The position numbers and the translations under genes are program-made. From Bacteroidales bacterium (lineage in GTDB: Bacteria > Bacteroidota > Bacteroidia > Bacteroidales > Muribaculaceae), in assembly GCA_015061085.1 (NCBI GenBank), contig SUXG01000002.1:1-64000 (forward strand): a DNA stretch of 64,000 nt, given 5' to 3'. Below, piece after piece: positions 2,432 through 19,166 of this stretch; position 1 is the first letter of the stretch, and each line of letters opens with the position of its first letter. A model generated the notes under the pieces. It was not told the DNA's origin and ran no database searches. It was given only the letters and a program-made list of their open reading frames with translations.

Positions 2432-3621
2432 TTCTTCAAGATTTTAATAGTCTGATTGTTTGCTTTAACAATATATACGCCGGGATTATAACCGGAAATG
2501 TCTATCGCATTATAGCCACTGAGAGAATAGTCTTGATAGTAAAGTTTGCCATCAATGTCATAGATTGCGACAGCGTATGATTTTCCATTGATGATTACTT
2601 CGTTTCCGTTATAATAGAAAGTCATTTCATCTTCTTCGGCAGATTGAATGCTGACAGTGTTGTTTTCAAAATATATTTTGTTGATGTGTTCCTTGACAAA
2701 TGATGTTTCAAGCATATCGGTGCGTATGTACATCAAGTCGCCTTCAAATGTCGCTGTTGGCTTATCGGTTGAAATATATTTTTGAGTAGATCCATTGACA
2801 AATTCTACAACTAATGATACTGTGCCATTATCTTGGGAATTAGTGGTTTTTGGTTTTACGGCGCGAATAGGACGACCTATATAGCGATATGTCCCGGGAC
2901 AATGATAACTTTTTGCATAATCCCCTTCTCTCCAAAATTCTGCAGCATAGGCAAATTCAGGAAGAGCTATTTCATCATAATTAACGCATTGGTTAGTCCA
3001 ATAAGTAGATAATGCGACATCTGATACATGGTATTCGTCTTGAATCCAACCGGCAGCGCAAAAGAAAATAGATTTGCCTTCATAACCGGGAACTTTACTT
3101 GTAAGTCTAACACCGGGATAACCATCTTCAGTAGCTTCGTAGTCTATGTCGCAGTTGTCATAAAGTTCCTGGAATTCTTCACGAGTCGGCATACGCCATT
3201 CTCCTCCCCACAACATTGTTGCAGCATCATCTTCAGGTTGAAGCGTATTTATACCATCAGTAGCAGTGTATTTGGTGAGAGAAGTCTTAGATGTTCCGAA
3301 TTTGTAGTAGCTCCAAGAGTACCAATCTTTCTCTTCGAGTTCACCCCAAGCGAGCAAGTAGCCCGGTTCGCCCGGAAGTGTAGCCCCGAGGTTGGTAGAA
3401 GCCCAATTGACTGATAGACCGAGGTCGATGATTTCGACACAATCCGGAGTATTGTCTTCCGGAATGTCCATGGCATCCTTGAATCTCATTTCGTCGATGT
3501 ATTCTAATGGTAATTCAATGGTTTCTCCATTGCTTTTCTCGACTAATAGTATCTCGGTTTCGGCAAACGAAGGTGTTGCCATAGCGAGAAGTATCAGTGA
3601 TGTGTAAATAAGATTTTTCAT
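2428..3621 (-). CDS. Fib_succ_major domain secreted protein with T9SS sorting domain
   Basis: 397 residues. A signal peptide (MKNLIYTSLILLAMATPSFA) is followed by a beta-hairpin-like motif (ILLVEKSNGETIELPLEYI), then one Fib_succ_major domain (about 62-255: DLGLSVNWAS, WRMPTREEFQELYDNC, STYWTNQ, GRPIRAV). A second KYISTDKP...INKIYF motif lies at about 275-325, and a C-terminal type A T9SS sorting domain at about 340-397 (GKLYYQDYSL, GVYIVKANNQTIKILKK). It should be exported by Sec, cross the outer membrane by T9SS and be released or anchored. It is the upstream member of an ATGA-coupled pair of close paralogues. Its own function is unknown; the Fib_succ_major domain has no established activity. 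Confidence 0.85.
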   Translation of the reverse strand: MKNLIYTSLILLAMATPSFAETEILLVEKSNGETIELPLEYIDEMRFKDAMDIPEDNTPDCVEIIDLGLSVNWASTNLGATLPGEPGYLLAWGELEEKDWYSWSYYKFGTSKTSLTKYTATDGINTLQPEDDAATMLWGGEWRMPTREEFQELYDNCDIDYEATEDGYPGVRLTSKVPGYEGKSIFFCAAGWIQDEYHVSDVALSTYWTNQCVNYDEIALPEFAYAAEFWREGDYAKSYHCPGTYRYIGRPIRAVKPKTTNSQDNGTVSLVVEFVNGSTQKYISTDKPTATFEGDLMYIRTDMLETSFVKEHINKIYFENNTVSIQSAEEDEMTFYYNGNEVIINGKSYAVAIYDIDGKLYYQDYSLSGYNAIDISGYNPGVYIVKANNQTIKILKK

Positions 3622-3651
3622 AAATTTGATATTTTGAGGATTAAATATGCG

Positions 3652-3858
3652 TTATAGATAGATTAATTGAATTGTTGAAAGATTGATAAAACTCGTCCCT
3701 TTGAATGACGTTGGCAAGTCGATATTGTCAATGACGGCAATACACGAGTTCATCTGCATCTCTATAGGATTGTAGATCTCAACTGAGTCGTCGCAACTAT
3801 TTGCATGCACTATGTTGCACAACAAATAGCATAGCAATAAAAAAATAATTTTTTTCAT
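3652..3858 (-). CDS. Small secreted protein heading the Fib_succ_major operon
   Basis: 68 residues: a clear signal peptide (MKKIIFLLLCYLLCNIVHA) and a mature part of about 48 residues with two cysteines (SCDDSVEIYN, MNSCIAVIDN). It lies 30 bp upstream of the 397-residue Fib_succ_major gene in the same direction, behind a -7-like element at 3905-3912, so it is probably the first gene of that operon. I do not recognise a family. It could be a real small exported protein or a decayed N-terminus of a larger surface protein; the mature part has no repeats or sorting domain. Confidence 0.5.
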   Translation of the reverse strand: MKKIIFLLLCYLLCNIVHANSCDDSVEIYNPIEMQMNSCIAVIDNIDLPTSFKGTSFINLSTIQLIYL

Positions 3859-3904
3859 GATAGTTAATTTATTTGGTAGTTTTACAAAGATTTTTTGTTT
3901 CTGG

Positions 3905-3912
3905 CAAATTTA
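3905..3912 (-). promoter_or_regulatory. Bacteroidetes -7 element upstream of the small secreted protein operon
   Basis: The minus strand reads TAAATTTGC, a full match to TAnnTTTG, about 45 nt before the ATG at 3858. The nearest TTTG is 23 nt upstream, longer than usual, so the -33 half is weak. Confidence 0.45.
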
Positions 3913-4052
3913 ATTAACTATTTTGATTAATGTAGCAAAAAGTCAGAATGATGATGTTTCATTTCTTGAATTACAACAATAATAGCGAATAATTGCACTA
4001 ATGTGATATAAAATTAGAGAGCGATACGAGTGTTTAAGTTCAAGAATTGCAA

Positions 4053-5621
4053 CTACGAATTATGTTGTTGCACATATTCTGACGGACTCATTTCTTTGTG
4101 TTTTTTGAATGCATTGTAGAATGTTACACGGCTTTTAAAACCGACAGATTGAGCTATCCCCTCCAAAGTCCATGTCCCATAGTTTTCTTTATCAACCATT
4201 CTTTTGCATGCCTCTTCGACGCGTAATGAATTGATTAGTGAAGTGAAATTTTGTCCATAAAGTTCGTTGATAACTTGAGAGACATATTTACTTTTAGAAT
4301 TGCATAATTCTGCTAATTGAGTTAAACAGAATTCTTGCTGATAGATTGTGTCAGTTTGTGTAAGAACATGCGTTATTTTTTCTTTTAGTTCTTGCTTGGT
4401 AGAGTCTTCCAAAGAACTATTTTCGTATTTAATGATTTTTTTAGTGATGTTTTGAATAGTAAGGTTTTTATGACGTTTTTTTAGGTTGAACCATAGGTAT
4501 AAAATAATAATAATGGCGGTTATTGCTATGATAAGTACTAAAATGAGCCATTGGTTCTTGTTTTTGTAACTATTCAATCGTGATTCTTCTTCATGTAGTT
4601 GGCGTATGAAATTTAGCGAATTAACTTCGTCAAGATTGTTGACCGACATTAGGGAGTCTTTGAGTTGGAGGGCAATAATCGAATATTCCGAAGATTTAAT
4701 GCTGTCGCCTTGTGTCTCATAGAGCTCGGATAACGCAGAAGCCGAAAGGGTCCTTGCATCTATCATATTGTTTTTTGTAGCCAAATCATACATTATTTCT
4801 TCGTAATATATAGCAGAGTCGGTGTTGTTCTCGATTACGAAGGATTTAGTGATGTTGGCATATACTTGAAATTTGAGAATATTGTTTCGAAATTCGTTGG
4901 GGATGCACTGTAGCTGACGATTAAAGTAGTATCGGGCTTGAGGATAATTTTTGTCGGCTATATGACAAAGTGCATGGTGGAAATTCATAATGTAGTCATA
5001 CGACTTTTCTGTCGGAGGTATATTAGCTTTATTGAAAGCATCCAATTCCTCTTTCATCTCTTCTATTTTCTGAGCACTATAAAATCGGTTTCCTAAATTA
5101 AAAAGTGCTGTAATCAGTGATGAGTATTGTTTGTGTTTCAGAGCATTCCAGAAAGATTTACGATAGGCTTCTTCTGCTTCTTTGAAATTTTGTTGTTTAG
5201 GACGTTGTTGAGCGTATGTCATCATGAGCGCACCTTGCTCCATATATATGCCGGTTAGCTCCTTATCCATTTTGCTTTCATCACATAGCTTAATGGCTTT
5301 AATGAGTTGTTGACACGCTTTGTCATAGTCGTAGAAGCAGAAATATAATCTTGCAGAATTAGTCAAAGCGTTGATACAAATGGATTTTTCTTCTTTAGAC
5401 ATTTCTGTTGTAGCTTTGTTTCCGCAAATAGAAAAACAGATCAAGGCAGAATCACGTTGCTCCTTTTCAAGGAAACTTTTACCTAAATTAAACAGACTGT
5501 CAGTCTTTAGGTCATTCCATCTGGAGTATATACTATTAAGATTCTCTTCGGCAATAGAATTAAAGGCTACTAATTGCAAAAGAGAATACATAATAATTTT
5601 AAGTATAGTATTGTTTCTCAT
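4053..5621 (-). CDS. Membrane-tethered TPR / AraC-type transcriptional regulator
   Basis: 522 residues. An N-terminal signal or signal-anchor (about 7-24) leads into a long helical tetratricopeptide-like region (about 30-330, with repeated LFNLG, ALKHKQYSS and ARYYFNRQLQ-type helices). One transmembrane helix follows (about 357-378, LILVLIIAITAIIIILYLWF), then a linker and a C-terminal AraC HTH_18 domain (about 430-520, with GTWTLEGIAQSVGFKSRVTF and PSEYVQQH). The inferred topology is periplasmic TPR sensor and cytoplasmic DNA-binding domain. This architecture is common in Bacteroidetes next to surface-protein operons. It sits upstream of and codirectional with the 3858-1 operon and is the natural candidate regulator of it. 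The signal it senses is unknown. Confidence 0.85.
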   Translation of the reverse strand: MRNNTILKIIMYSLLQLVAFNSIAEENLNSIYSRWNDLKTDSLFNLGKSFLEKEQRDSALICFSICGNKATTEMSKEEKSICINALTNSARLYFCFYDYDKACQQLIKAIKLCDESKMDKELTGIYMEQGALMMTYAQQRPKQQNFKEAEEAYRKSFWNALKHKQYSSLITALFNLGNRFYSAQKIEEMKEELDAFNKANIPPTEKSYDYIMNFHHALCHIADKNYPQARYYFNRQLQCIPNEFRNNILKFQVYANITKSFVIENNTDSAIYYEEIMYDLATKNNMIDARTLSASALSELYETQGDSIKSSEYSIIALQLKDSLMSVNNLDEVNSLNFIRQLHEEESRLNSYKNKNQWLILVLIIAITAIIIILYLWFNLKKRHKNLTIQNITKKIIKYENSSLEDSTKQELKEKITHVLTQTDTIYQQEFCLTQLAELCNSKSKYVSQVINELYGQNFTSLINSLRVEEACKRMVDKENYGTWTLEGIAQSVGFKSRVTFYNAFKKHKEMSPSEYVQQHNS

Positions 5622-16217: not shown

Positions 16218-17810
16218 ATGTATCGTATATATTGTGTAATATTTTTTGTTGCATTATTTGTCAATGTTTTTGCCGGAAAGGATGATGTTTCTGATGTGAA
16301 ATTGCCAATATCGGAGTTGAAGATGCTCGACAATTCGTTGCGAGACGCCAGAAGGTATGATAAGGCTAAAATGTTGACCATAGATTCGTTGCAAAAAGTT
16401 TTAAAGAAAGTATCATTAAAGGACTATGTCGCACAGTGGAATTTAAACATGGATATAGGTAATCAGTTTAAAGCATTTAGTGCAGACTCGGCATTGAAGT
16501 ATTATCGTAAATCATACAATATCTCGATGCTTGTAGGAGTAGATTCGCTAAAGAAACTGAGTGAAGTTGCCAGTTTGAATGCTCTTTCTGCAGCCGGTAT
16601 ATTCCCTGAAGCGGTGAATATGTTGGATTCTCTTGAAAAAGAAAGTGCTCAAGAATCGATTAGAATAGAGTTGTTGAAGGCCGGAAGGCAATTGTATTCT
16701 TACATGTTGAGCTATGTCGATAATCATCAACAATTCTATGCAAAGTATAATGAGAAATATAATAAGTATGATGATGAGTTGTTAAAGATATTGCCCAAGG
16801 AGTCGGCGTATTATAAATTTGTCTATGCAGAGCATCTGATTCAAGAGAATAGATATAAAGAAGCAAAACAAATATTGGAAGTATTGATGAAGGAACTGCC
16901 TGATCACACAAATCTTTATGGTATGTGTGCGTATCAGATGGCTGAAGTGTATAGAAATCAAGGAGATGAAACACAGTATGCACGATATTTGGCATTGTCG
17001 GCGATAAGTGATATAAAGGGCAGTGTAAAAGAGACGATGTCGTTGCCAACGTTGGCGCATTGGCTATATGAGCATGGCGATTTGGATCGTGCGTTTAACT
17101 ATATTAATGCCTCATTGCAAGATGCAATGACGGGTAATGCGCGAATGAGGACTGTGACAGTTGCTCGATTTGTGCCGATGATCGATAATGCCTATCGACA
17201 AAAAATCAATTCATCACGAGACGAGTTGATGATATATTTCATTTTGGTCACATTGTTATTGTTGATCTCCGGAGTTTTATTATTTGTGTTGATGCGTCAA
17301 ATGAAGCGTATCAGAGAAGCTCAAAAAAAATTGGCTGCCACAAGTAGGATTCAGGATTCATATATAGGTAACTTCCTTGGACTTTGTTCGTCGTATGCCG
17401 ATAAGTTGGAATCGATGAGTAAACTCGTTAGCAGAAAAATATCAGCCGGGCAGACAGATGAATTGCTGAAATTGATAAAGTCCGGAAAGTTTACAGATGA
17501 TCAGAATGATGATTTTTACAAAATATTTGATAATGCGTTTTTGGATTTGTATCCGGACTTTGTTGATGAAATAAATAAGCTGTTGCGACCTGAAGATCAA
17601 CTTGTCGTCAAAAATGGTCAGGGCCTATCTCCGGAATTGAGAATATATGCCTTTGTCAGACTTGGAGTGGAAGAGAGTACCCGAATTTCTCAGATTCTTC
17701 ATTATTCTGTAAGTACTATTTATGCTTATCGAAATCGAATGAGAAATCGAGCAATAAATAGGGATAATTTTGACTCTGATGTGATGAAAATCGGAAGAAA
17801 TTTTGATTAA
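16218..17810 (+). CDS. DUF6377 protein: TPR sensor, transmembrane helix, LuxR-like HTH
   Basis: 530 residues from the ATG at 16218, chosen because the promoter lies just upstream and the protein then begins with a signal peptide (MYRIYCVIFFVALFVNVFAG). A TPR-like helical region (about 40-330: KQILEVLMKELPDHTNLYG, HGDLDRAFNYINASLQDA) precedes one transmembrane helix (about 338-358). The C-terminal DUF6377 region ends in a helix-turn-helix (LSPELRIYAFVRLGVEE, ILHYSVSTIYAYRNRMRNR). Same general design as the 4053-5621 regulator but with a different output domain. The inferred role is an envelope-sensing membrane-bound regulator. No obvious target operon downstream; the next 0.9 kb is non-coding. 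Confidence 0.85.
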   Translation: MYRIYCVIFFVALFVNVFAGKDDVSDVKLPISELKMLDNSLRDARRYDKAKMLTIDSLQKVLKKVSLKDYVAQWNLNMDIGNQFKAFSADSALKYYRKSYNISMLVGVDSLKKLSEVASLNALSAAGIFPEAVNMLDSLEKESAQESIRIELLKAGRQLYSYMLSYVDNHQQFYAKYNEKYNKYDDELLKILPKESAYYKFVYAEHLIQENRYKEAKQILEVLMKELPDHTNLYGMCAYQMAEVYRNQGDETQYARYLALSAISDIKGSVKETMSLPTLAHWLYEHGDLDRAFNYINASLQDAMTGNARMRTVTVARFVPMIDNAYRQKINSSRDELMIYFILVTLLLLISGVLLFVLMRQMKRIREAQKKLAATSRIQDSYIGNFLGLCSSYADKLESMSKLVSRKISAGQTDELLKLIKSGKFTDDQNDDFYKIFDNAFLDLYPDFVDEINKLLRPEDQLVVKNGQGLSPELRIYAFVRLGVEESTRISQILHYSVSTIYAYRNRMRNRAINRDNFDSDVMKIGRNFD

Positions 17811-17904
17811 TAGTCTGTATTATAAGTTATATTTGTGGATATTTAATCTAATTATAATCTGATGATTAGTAAATATAATACTTATATTTTTATTATAATA
17901 TAGA

Positions 17905-17933
17905 TTGAATTTGAGACGGATGTTGTAATTTTG
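17905..17933 (+). promoter_or_regulatory. Candidate promoter of small RNA copy 1
   Basis: TTG (17905-17907), 18 nt, TAATTTTG (17926-17933), an exact -7 element. No coding gene follows for about 800 bp. Confidence 0.45.
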
Positions 17934-17938
17934 TAATC

Positions 17939-18085
17939 GCTAAGGTATTAGCAAAGCTCTTTCGGAGTTTTTTATAGAATCGAACAAAGAGATAAATATC
18001 ATATATGTTAGGTTTGTAGACAATAAAATTAGATTTATGATTCGCATTGTGCAGGTTTCTTGTGAAAGACGCCTGCTTTTTATTT
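17939..18085 (+). ncRNA. Candidate small RNA, copy 1 of a sibling pair
   Basis: Predicted transcript of roughly 145 nt between a -7 element and a terminator-like hairpin. The 5-prime end can form GCTAA (17939-17943) / TTAGC (17948-17952). The 3-prime end has GCAGG (18051-18055) / CCTGC (18072-18076), with inner TTTC/GAAA pairing, then a T run. The last 86 nt recur at 18579-18664. A second weak hairpin with T run at about 17953-17973 could end the transcript early. No known family recognised; an RNA is inferred from promoter, terminator and duplication only. Confidence 0.45.
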
Positions 18086-18089
18086 ATAT
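18004..18089 (+). repeat. 86-bp direct repeat, copy 1
   Basis: Matches 18579-18664 at 82 of 86 positions. It starts TATGTTAGGTTTGTAGA and ends in the hairpin plus T run. The four differences include G/A and C/T changes beside or within the hairpin, where G-C becomes G-U so pairing survives. Confidence 0.9.
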
Positions 18090-18426
18090 CCACATGATCA
18101 GTCGATTCCATAAATGAATATAACCATCACTTAGATTGGCAATTAAAGATAGATTGTTTTTTATTTGAAAATATGGATTTGTGCTAATTGATGACTTCGA
18201 TAATTGATGTGATTGGATATCGAAGTGAAGAAAACTAAATTATCAGTATATAATGCCGGATTTAGGGAAATGAGGTCTCATTTGGAGGACTTTCTATGTC
18301 AATAACTAAGATTTTGAGTTATATTATAACTTTAATATAACTTGTATTATAAAAATGTAAGTAGTAGAAAATCAACTGAATAATAATTTTATTACTTATA
18401 TAAATATTTATATTGATATTACATAA

Positions 18427-18458
18427 TTTGCGTAGAAACACAAAGGGTAGTAATTTTG
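18427..18458 (+). promoter_or_regulatory. Strong candidate promoter of small RNA copy 2
   Basis: TTTG (18427-18430), 20 nt, TAATTTTGC (18451-18459): exact in both halves. No start codon with a plausible gene follows until aroQ, which has its own promoter. Confidence 0.65.
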
Positions 18459-18462
18459 CAAT

Positions 18463-18657
18463 GTCAAAATAAAATGACATGTACAGAAAATGATTCGTCA
18501 TATAAATGGCAGAAAATATAGTTAGGAAAATTTGGTATAAAAGATTAAGGTTTTTATAAGATTAGTAAATAAATCGTTTATGTTAGGTTTGTAGAAAATA
18601 AGATTAGATTTATGATTCGCATTATGCAGGTTTCTTGTGAAAGACGCCTGTTTTTTA
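18463..18657 (+). ncRNA. Candidate small RNA, copy 2 of a sibling pair
   Basis: Predicted transcript of about 190 nt. An imperfectly placed 5-prime hairpin (ATGTCA 18461-18466 / TGACAT 18475-18480) sits at the expected start. The 3-prime 86 nt are shared with copy 1, ending in GCAGG (18627-18631) / CCTGT (18648-18652) and a run of six T. The region between is unrelated to copy 1, so the two would share a 3-prime module but differ in the 5-prime half. It ends about 80 bp before aroQ. Confidence 0.5.
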
Positions 18658-18664
18658 TTTATAT
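18579..18664 (+). repeat. 86-bp direct repeat, copy 2
   Basis: See copy 1 at 18004-18089; 82 of 86 positions agree and there are no gaps. Confidence 0.9.
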
Positions 18665-18688
18665 AAACTACAGAAAAATCATATCTGC

Positions 18689-18719
18689 TTGCAATTTAAA
18701 AGCTATTGCACTAACTTTG
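18689..18719 (+). promoter_or_regulatory. Promoter of the aroQ operon
   Basis: TTG (18689-18691), 20 nt, TAACTTTG (18712-18719), followed 19 nt later by the aroQ ATG. This excludes an in-frame upstream ATG at 18612 as the start. Confidence 0.7.
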
Positions 18720-18737
18720 CAGAATATTAGAGGGAAT

Positions 18738-19166
18738 ATGAAAATACTTATTATAAATGGTCCCAATTTAAATCTGTTGGGCAGGCGTGAGCCGGAGATA
18801 TACGGAACGACATCATTTGAAGACTACTTTGCTTCTTTGAAAGAAAGATTCAAAGAGGTTGAGTTATCGTATTTCCAGACAAATCACGAGGGTGAAATAA
18901 TAGATAAGTTGCATAGCTGTATAGGTGTGTGCGATGCAGTTGTACTGAATGCGGGTGCATATAGTCACACATCGTTGGCCATAGCAGATGCAATAGCTTC
19001 GATAGATTTGCCTATTGTGGAGGTTCATATAAGTAATGTTTTTGCACGTGAAACAATCCGACAACATTCAATGCTGTCGTCAGTGTGTAAAGGAGTGATT
19101 GTCGGTTTCGGTCTTAAATCATACGATTTGGCAGTCAGTTCATTAATTGATATTTGCAAAAAATGA
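18738..19166 (+). CDS. aroQ: Type II 3-dehydroquinate dehydratase
   Basis: 142 residues from the ATG at 18738, typical of the type II enzyme. It dehydrates 3-dehydroquinate to 3-dehydroshikimate in the shikimate pathway. Motifs: NGPNLNLLGRREPEIYG with the catalytic Arg and Tyr, FQTNHEGEIIDKLH, NAGAYSHTSLAIADAI, and EVHISNVFARETIRQHS with the catalytic His. aroB, for the preceding pathway step, lies 2.4 kb away on the other strand. First gene of an operon with the O-methyltransferase, rbfA and a LolC/E-type permease; its stop overlaps the next start (ATGA). Confidence 0.95.
   Translation: MKILIINGPNLNLLGRREPEIYGTTSFEDYFASLKERFKEVELSYFQTNHEGEIIDKLHSCIGVCDAVVLNAGAYSHTSLAIADAIASIDLPIVEVHISNVFARETIRQHSMLSSVCKGVIVGFGLKSYDLAVSSLIDICKK

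Follow-up and report, generated by a model that had tools for sequence, protein, structure and literature searches.

A tandemly duplicated candidate small RNA gene beside a SusR-like regulator gene in a Muribaculaceae genome

We propose that the gap between a SusR-like regulator gene and aroQ, in the 64,000-nucleotide stretch of Muribaculaceae DNA analysed here (the window), contains a tandemly duplicated small RNA (sRNA) gene belonging to the regulator gene, a complete scheme to which we give a probability of about 0.6. The sRNA gene itself is its firmest part: the fixed place behind a DUF6377 homologue, a promoter and a covarying terminator make it very probable, and the locus displays the features of an intergenic sRNA, namely its own promoter, an intrinsic terminator and conservation without an open reading frame (ORF). 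This agrees with an earlier sequence-only reading, which predicted two sibling sRNA genes, both with a promoter and a terminator of their own. Control of the sRNA by the SusR-type protein is probable, and the odds that pairing with mRNAs is the main mode of the RNA are, judging by analogy, about even.

According to this scheme, the membrane-bound SusR-like protein would respond to a signal, which by analogy would be a glycan or an oligosaccharide, and would activate the primary-sigma promoter TAATTTTG from direct YTATATT repeats located upstream. The resulting RNA, of about 145 nt for copy 1 or about 195 nt for copy 2, would end at the intrinsic terminator, and the single-stranded AUGUUAGGUUUGUAG near this terminator would be the working end, acting in trans, most likely by mRNA pairing like other Bacteroidales sRNAs; in most relatives, the otherwise unconserved 5' part would contribute additional AGGUWA sites.

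SusR-like regulators are activators of polysaccharide-use operons. If the sRNA is both the conserved neighbour and the target of the SusR-like regulator throughout the genus, which belongs to the abundant gut Muribaculaceae, glycan sensing would be wired directly to RNA control. With its clear layout of repeats, promoter, core and terminator, the unit lends itself to tests in cultured Muribaculaceae, and the recurring AGGUWA motif provides a handle on an RNA-binding partner or on pairing targets. Literature searches found no paper on DUF6377, none on a SusR-linked sRNA in Bacteroides and, among the titles listed, no Muribaculaceae work on sRNAs of the window's family.

Two tandem transcription units

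The 927-bp gap between the DUF6377 stop codon (17810) and the aroQ start (18738) holds, as had been described, two 86-bp blocks identical at 82 of 86 positions (Table 1). The mismatches fall at 18021, 18027, 18049 and 18076 (copy 1 coordinates), and a repeat search stretches the block pair to 92 nt with 93% identity. The promoter regions are repeated too (17922-17937 and 18447-18462, 88% over 16 nt), each including the exact -7 element already noticed by the sequence-only reading, and so are upstream stretches that this reading had not mentioned (17856-17894 and 18370-18408, 72% over 39 nt); the spacing between the repeat pairs varies slightly (525, 514 and 575 bp). Since the promoter and upstream stretches are repeated alongside the block, the duplication covers the whole transcription unit.

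Table 1. Positions of the predicted features of the locus (window coordinates)
Feature	Coordinates	Strand	Remarks
SusR-like regulator gene	16218..17810	+	Pfam DUF6377, TPR repeats, predicted membrane segment, candidate helix-turn-helix at the C-terminus
Operator-like boxes, copy 1	17815..17888	+	CTGTATT 17815, TTATATT 17827, TTATATT 17882
-7 element TAATTTTG, copy 1	17926..17933	+	exact match
5' part of RNA, copy 1	17941..18003	+	GCTAA/TTAGC hairpin in fold
Terminator-like hairpin and T run, AAAGCTCTTTCGGAGTTTTTT	17953..17977	+	inside copy 1 5' part, from fold
Conserved 3' block, copy 1	18004..18089	+	core ATGTTAGGTTTGTAG 18005-18019, GATTCGCA, GUGA-loop terminator hairpin, T run
Operator-like boxes, copy 2	18319..18414	+	TTATATT 18319, TTGTATT 18342, TTATATA 18396, TTATATT 18408
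-7 element TAATTTTG, copy 2	18451..18458	+	exact match
5' part of RNA, copy 2	18462..18578	+	ATGTCA/TGACAT hairpin at start, from fold
Conserved 3' block, copy 2	18579..18664	+	core 18580-18594, terminator hairpin with G-U closing pair, T run
aroQ -7 element TAACTTTG	18712..18719	+	aroQ gene 18738-19166

The distance from promoter to block is about 50 bp shorter in copy 1, whose 5' part is below that of most relatives in length. The terminator-like hairpin lying within this 5' part, which the sequence-only reading did not report, may truncate the copy 1 transcript ahead of the conserved block. Copy 2 keeps the usual layout, and copy 1 may be a weaker or diverging duplicate. The other loci examined contain a single copy each, except one with a partial second core (L128); relatives being mostly single-copy, duplication is not the general state.

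The aroQ gene has its own predicted promoter at 18712 and therefore lies outside the RNA unit. Its frame is open back to 18612, inside block 2, and an automatic gene caller could place the start within the sRNA; we attribute this reading through block 2 to chance, since the aroQ promoter sits at 18712, and favour 18738. No protein explains the conservation, as had been proposed: the two longer reverse-strand ORFs of the gap are without a Pfam match. A 72-aa ORF on the minus strand (17893-18111) that spans copy 1 likewise has no match in Pfam.

Each block had been described as ending in a hairpin followed by a T run, and comparison of 27 distinct sequences shows that this terminator hairpin covaries, both sides having changed in 9 of the 11 pairs. 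Terminator cells are paired at 98.3%, a level reached by none of 500 shuffles, and slid versions of the alignment pair at 46-54%. The change of a G-C closing pair to G-U in copy 2 corresponds to the C to T difference at 18076. A simple terminator scan of 17800-18760 called none, probably because of the internal mismatch of the stem. The terminator loop C-UUGUGAAA-G is kept; given that the Rfam consensus for FopS and that for BTnc231 contain similar GUGA loops, it may be a general terminator feature.

The folds of the whole RNAs are unremarkable (z of -1.60 for copy 1 and -0.33 for copy 2). The small 5' hairpins that had been suggested for both copies do appear in these folds; as a family feature, the 5' end hairpin is weakly supported, pairing of the extreme 5' end being only slightly above shuffles among 50 family members (32 versus 25.6). 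Their first 60 nt do fold better than shuffles (-12.1 compared with -8.4 kcal/mol).

Conserved core, variable 5' part and possible mode of action

Inside the shared block, the near-invariant AUGUUAGGUUUGUAG adjoins the terminator. The 15-mer ATGTTAGGTTTGTAG is kept in 28 of 28 aligned sequences, and the proteins adjoining most of these loci are just 42-61% identical. It should be noted that 48 loci, from Muribaculaceae and other Bacteroidales MAGs, were picked by an exact 21-mer of the core, so that their core invariance partly reflects how they were chosen; neither the neighbouring genes nor the promoter played a part in this choice. The 28 aligned sequences are independent of the 21-mer scan, and the 15-mer is invariant there too. 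A hairpin enclosing the core is no better than with shuffled flanks (mean of -0.66 versus -0.47 kcal/mol for 29 window-type RNAs), and the core is thus predicted to be unpaired. Because the conserved stretch is nearly constant across the genus and predicted to be unpaired, the 3' block with AUGUUAGGUUUGUAG is likelier to be the working end than a scaffold. This runs against the earlier idea of a common scaffold joined to a variable targeting part: the 5' parts are largely unalignable between relatives, 50 of them falling into 22 BLAST clusters.

The 5' parts nevertheless share a short motif. AGGT[AT]A was found 81 times in the 50 5' parts versus 13.0 in shuffles, and 0 times on the reverse strand. 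With a single member for each of the 22 BLAST clusters, 36 occurrences were counted compared to 5.6 in shuffles; DNA directly upstream of the RNA showed no excess (3 versus 2.5). This amounts to 8.9 sites per kb in the 5' parts, compared with 0.70 per kb on one strand of the window and 0.27 per kb on the other. Among the 50 parts, 22 carry one site, 16 two, five three and three four, and both window copies are among the four parts that have none. Such an enrichment fits either extra pairing seeds or protein sites.

CsrB/CsrC and RsmY/RsmZ are decoy RNAs, CsrB and RsmZ titrating CsrA in Proteobacteria. To our knowledge, the Bacteroidota are a phylum without Hfq or CsrA. A comparable decoy, whose AGGUWA sites and UUAGGUU core would bind an RNA-binding protein that is carried or titrated, would account for the forward-strand enrichment, for its persistence with one member per cluster, for its absence from upstream DNA and for its rate compared with the window strands, and most relatives here do resemble CsrB-type RNAs in having a repeated short motif in a poorly conserved body. 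However, the motif differs from that of CsrB-type RNAs and is absent from the window's own two copies, 22 of the 50 5' parts hold a single site, and no RRM_1 protein was found in the window's own genome, which is 81.5% complete. Repeated pairing seeds would, moreover, yield the same pattern, and we regard the decoy as unlikely.

We favour pairing of the core with mRNAs, in analogy to what passages of PMC7366714, PMC11697453 and PMC10861873 present for GibS, FopS and BatR, and place protein binding second. A target pattern search returned 15 matches in the own genome compared to 11 in the control, hence no excess, and one non-self match in the window. The complement of AGGUWA, T[AT]ACCT, was found 23 times ahead of 376 ORF starts, a set that includes orthologues, versus 10.0 expected. 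It occurs in 8 of 32 leaders of SusR-like genes, one locus being counted twice, compared to 1.5 in shuffles, and is missing from the other 24 and from the window leader. Autoregulation of the SusR-like mRNA by AGGUUA pairing, which fails for these 24 leaders and for the window, is accordingly kept as a lead only. On a wider view, which we rate as less likely than not, a glycan-sensing SusR-like membrane regulator would possess a conserved RNA output whose body is an AGGUWA/UUAGGUU array. This RNA, either a multi-seed sRNA or the equivalent in Bacteroidota of the multi-site RNAs of CsrB type, would couple sugar sensing to post-transcriptional control, and sister short RNAs with the same core would be fired by an ECF sigma factor.

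Promoters, operator-like boxes and the SusR-like regulator

The octamer TAATTTTG is not rare in the window (11 occurrences versus 7.8 +/- 2.6 by chance). Being common by chance, it draws its weight from its conserved place in relatives: considering the 56 distinct places defined by the core ATGTTAGGTTTGTAG with at most one change, two of which are contributed by the window, a TAnnTTTG[CT]A promoter lies 60-480 nt ahead of the core in 50.

The DNA upstream of these promoters is rich in direct repeats. [CT]TATATT was counted 113 times upstream of 50 RNA promoters versus 19.7 in shuffles, and without excess in the RNA part (3 versus 2.4). Aligned on 49 promoters, the boxes pile up at -110 to -108 (37) and at -55/-54 (27), with 111 in forward and 11 in reverse orientation across the family, and at least two boxes are present in 38 of the 49 regions. 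When one mismatch is allowed, box pairs 54 bp apart occur in 30 of 49 regions (2.8 in shuffles), pairs 77 bp apart in 20 (2.2) and pairs 66 bp apart in 15 (2.8), the relatives in all these counts not being independent samples. An 11-bp helical periodicity of the boxes was not above the control (0.59 versus a shuffle mean of 0.46 and maximum of 1.0). In the window, copy 1 has a TTATATT pair 55 bp apart, at -99 and -44, and the boxes of copy 2 stand at -132, -109, -55 and -43 from the -7 element, which are the preferred places of the family; the window gap itself shows no strand bias of the boxes (4 forward, 5 reverse).

For SusR-like regulators, passages of PMC3878776 predict operators made of two directly repeated boxes whose centres lie 67 or 77 bp from each other. 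The operator-like boxes here are direct repeats with long spacing as well, a comparison made by spacing and not by motif letters, and their usual distance is 54 bp. The RNA promoter region resembles a SusR operator in its pattern of boxes, at which the regulator would bind.

The neighbouring gene had been recognised as a DUF6377 gene, which holds (Pfam DUF6377, E 1.9e-78), and its SusR-like nature had been missed. Its product matches NCBIfam NF058541 (SusR_regulator), described as SusR family glycan utilization regulator, with 454.2 bits over residues 62-553 (E 8.3e-136), a score under the curated cut-off of 480, and by these matches we class it as SusR-like. The C-terminal parts of 25 of 25 RNA-linked DUF6377 proteins match NF058541 as well. 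In the AF2 model, the C-terminal part of the regulator has a mean pLDDT of 85 and three terminal helices, and LuxR/NarL-type DNA-binding domains recur among its Foldseek matches (for example NarL 1je8, rmsd of 2.0 over 55 columns), none of which reaches E 0.001. The protein has no HTH match in Pfam, and a PDB sequence search gave a single weak and irrelevant match. The regulator ORF is listed from 16134; the promoter-like TATCTTTG immediately 5' of 16218 and a signal-peptide-like N-terminus suggest a start at 16218.

SusR of Bacteroides thetaiotaomicron controls sus and other polysaccharide operons, as stated in passages of PMC3878776. A SusR-like membrane regulator is present there and here; its targets there are polysaccharide operons, whereas its conserved neighbour here is an sRNA gene. 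Of the 56 places, 47, including the two of the window, have a same-strand DUF6377 homologue upstream, usually 0.2-0.6 kb off; a SusR-like gene was undetected upstream in the other 9, at least 700 nt of upstream DNA being present in 54 of the 56. Such an arrangement would also be seen if the block were a long structured 3' UTR or the terminator of the SusR-like mRNA, with no separate RNA. Yet 50 of the 56 places have a primary promoter between the gene and the block, conserved operator-like DNA lies upstream of that promoter, and in L089, the closest relative, whose regulator is 81% identical, rpoN intervenes between regulator and RNA; we hold a 3' UTR to be very unlikely. The aroQ gene adjoins the RNA unit in the window alone among the 56 places.

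Distribution and related RNA families

The block search and covariance model that had been suggested for Bacteroidales were carried out. A BLAST-type search detected the block in 29 of 101 genomes, 28 of them within the window's own genus, its own genome included; a plasmid collection searched with the block gave no match. With the covariance model built from the block family (R1), 83 of 111 genus genomes gave a match at E <= 0.01, some of the weaker ones belonging to a dispersed family described below, and the best E was <= 1e-5 in 63 of the 111. At E <= 0.01, R1 had no match in 14 of 46 good genus genomes. When 247 family genomes were searched, 32 matched at E <= 0.001, 27 of these within the genus. 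A similar RNA with a TAnnTTTG promoter and GTGTTTTATGTTAGGTTTG was seen at L240:1515 and L244:1515, two relatives from other Muribaculaceae genera; no SusR-like gene was detected upstream in L240.

The core could also be read as encoding a four-codon peptide, ATG TTA GGT TTG TAG (M-L-G-L), of the kind known from leaders and upstream ORFs. All 28 aligned members keep this frame open and L240 has TAA in place of TAG, but every base is conserved and not the codons alone, the stop is missing in L244 and L081 carries GTGTTAGGTTTTGTAA, which makes a coding role highly improbable. A dispersed DNA repeat or a mobile element that has no function as RNA, a reading which the two near-identical copies and a related family scattered in the genus might suggest and which the sequence-only reading had named as the case that would overturn it, is the least credible explanation, contradicted by synteny: the own genome (2.16 Mb, 81.5% complete) holds only two close copies, the next match being at E 0.014, and neighbourhood and promoter are conserved, with compensatory changes.

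The weaker R1 matches are short RNAs with the core TTTCATGATGTTAGGTTAGT at other genomic places. An AAC-N-GTTnTA promoter, which we take to be of the ECF type, precedes 43 of 53 distinct copies compared with 2.4 in shuffles. A covariance model of this dispersed family (R2) had matches in 51 of 247 family genomes, of which 42 belong to the genus; a single genome gave as many as 14, and window-type copies can be among these matches. R2 recovers the two copies of the window with E values of 2.1e-5 and 2.5e-5. Order-wide R2 matches in 13 other genomes (E <= 0.01) were rejected as chance, the core being absent at up to two substitutions in the loci inspected. Aligning the window-type core with the dispersed one gives AAATCGTTT----ATGTTAGGTTTGT and AAATCGTTTCATGATGTTAGGTTAGT, an alignment equalled by 1 of 5000 shuffles. 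From these comparisons the window RNAs are classed as a homologous sister group of the dispersed family and not as members, since their promoters are of the TAnnTTTG type, not the ECF type.

An Rfam search did not place the window RNAs in any family. FopS is an sRNA family of Bacteroidaceae (RF04319), and passages of PMC11697453 describe traits that the window RNAs share: several paralogous short intergenic RNAs per genome, a primary-sigma promoter, a single-stranded conserved stretch followed by a GUGA-loop intrinsic terminator, and a link to glycan use, which here is a proposed one. Muribaculaceae are not mentioned in the passages searched. Binding by RbpB and repression of susC-like mRNAs would further be expected of a FopS member. 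By contrast, the window RNAs are without the UUUUUCAU seed and adjoin a SusR-like regulator. RF04319 had no match at the gathering level (56 bits) in the window and none at E <= 5 in 17800-18760, and the same search matched two loci of the own genome as a positive control. These FopS genes lie at L194:1496-1566 (C41, 72.8 bits) and L191:1496-1562 (C18, 62.9 bits), and FopS is present in 108 of 111 genus genomes. The 5' R1 seed of FopS, UUUUUCAUgGUAUUAGAU, is absent from the window RNAs, and its core alignment with them was matched by 4133 of 5000 shuffles. Given the lack of a FopS match for the window core, the window RNAs are not filed under FopS. The FopS and dispersed-family cores are identical at 14 of 17 positions, which 265 of 5000 shuffles equal, and kinship to FopS is only suggestive.

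GibS (RF04182) and BTnc231 (RF04180) of Bacteroides are likewise intergenic sRNAs of similar size with a terminator, and GibS pairs with mRNAs at start codons, according to passages of PMC7366714. The GibS model scored 20.1 bits (E 3.7) on the window, which is chance level, and the BTnc231 model gave 34.8 bits for L240 and 32.8 bits for L244, mostly from the terminator, against a gathering threshold of 80.4. As for 6S RNA, RF00013 had no match in the own genome, in a search that detects this RNA in 6 of 14 genomes used as controls, and the candidate was discarded.

Several dispersed-family loci have settings of their own. In the own genome, a dispersed-family sRNA (L071:1221-1306; C1:41620-41705) lies on the opposite strand between ECF sigma and anti-sigma-like genes and has an ECF-type promoter of its own. 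Homologues of this sigma gene were found in 10 of the 43 loci examined and homologues of this anti-sigma-like gene in 13 of them, two locus pairs being the same place; such comparable surroundings elsewhere in the genus suggest an sRNA unit driven by an ECF sigma factor. On a contig from a viral collection (L136:2797-2816 and 3286-4524), a dispersed-family sRNA has the gene of a tyrosine integrase as its immediate neighbour on one side and a DUF4249 gene on the other, and the end of this sRNA may be an integration site. Finally, L069 (1201-1678) and L149 carry tandem arrays of dispersed sRNAs, with about 195 or about 135 nt per unit and a promoter-like sequence before every copy.
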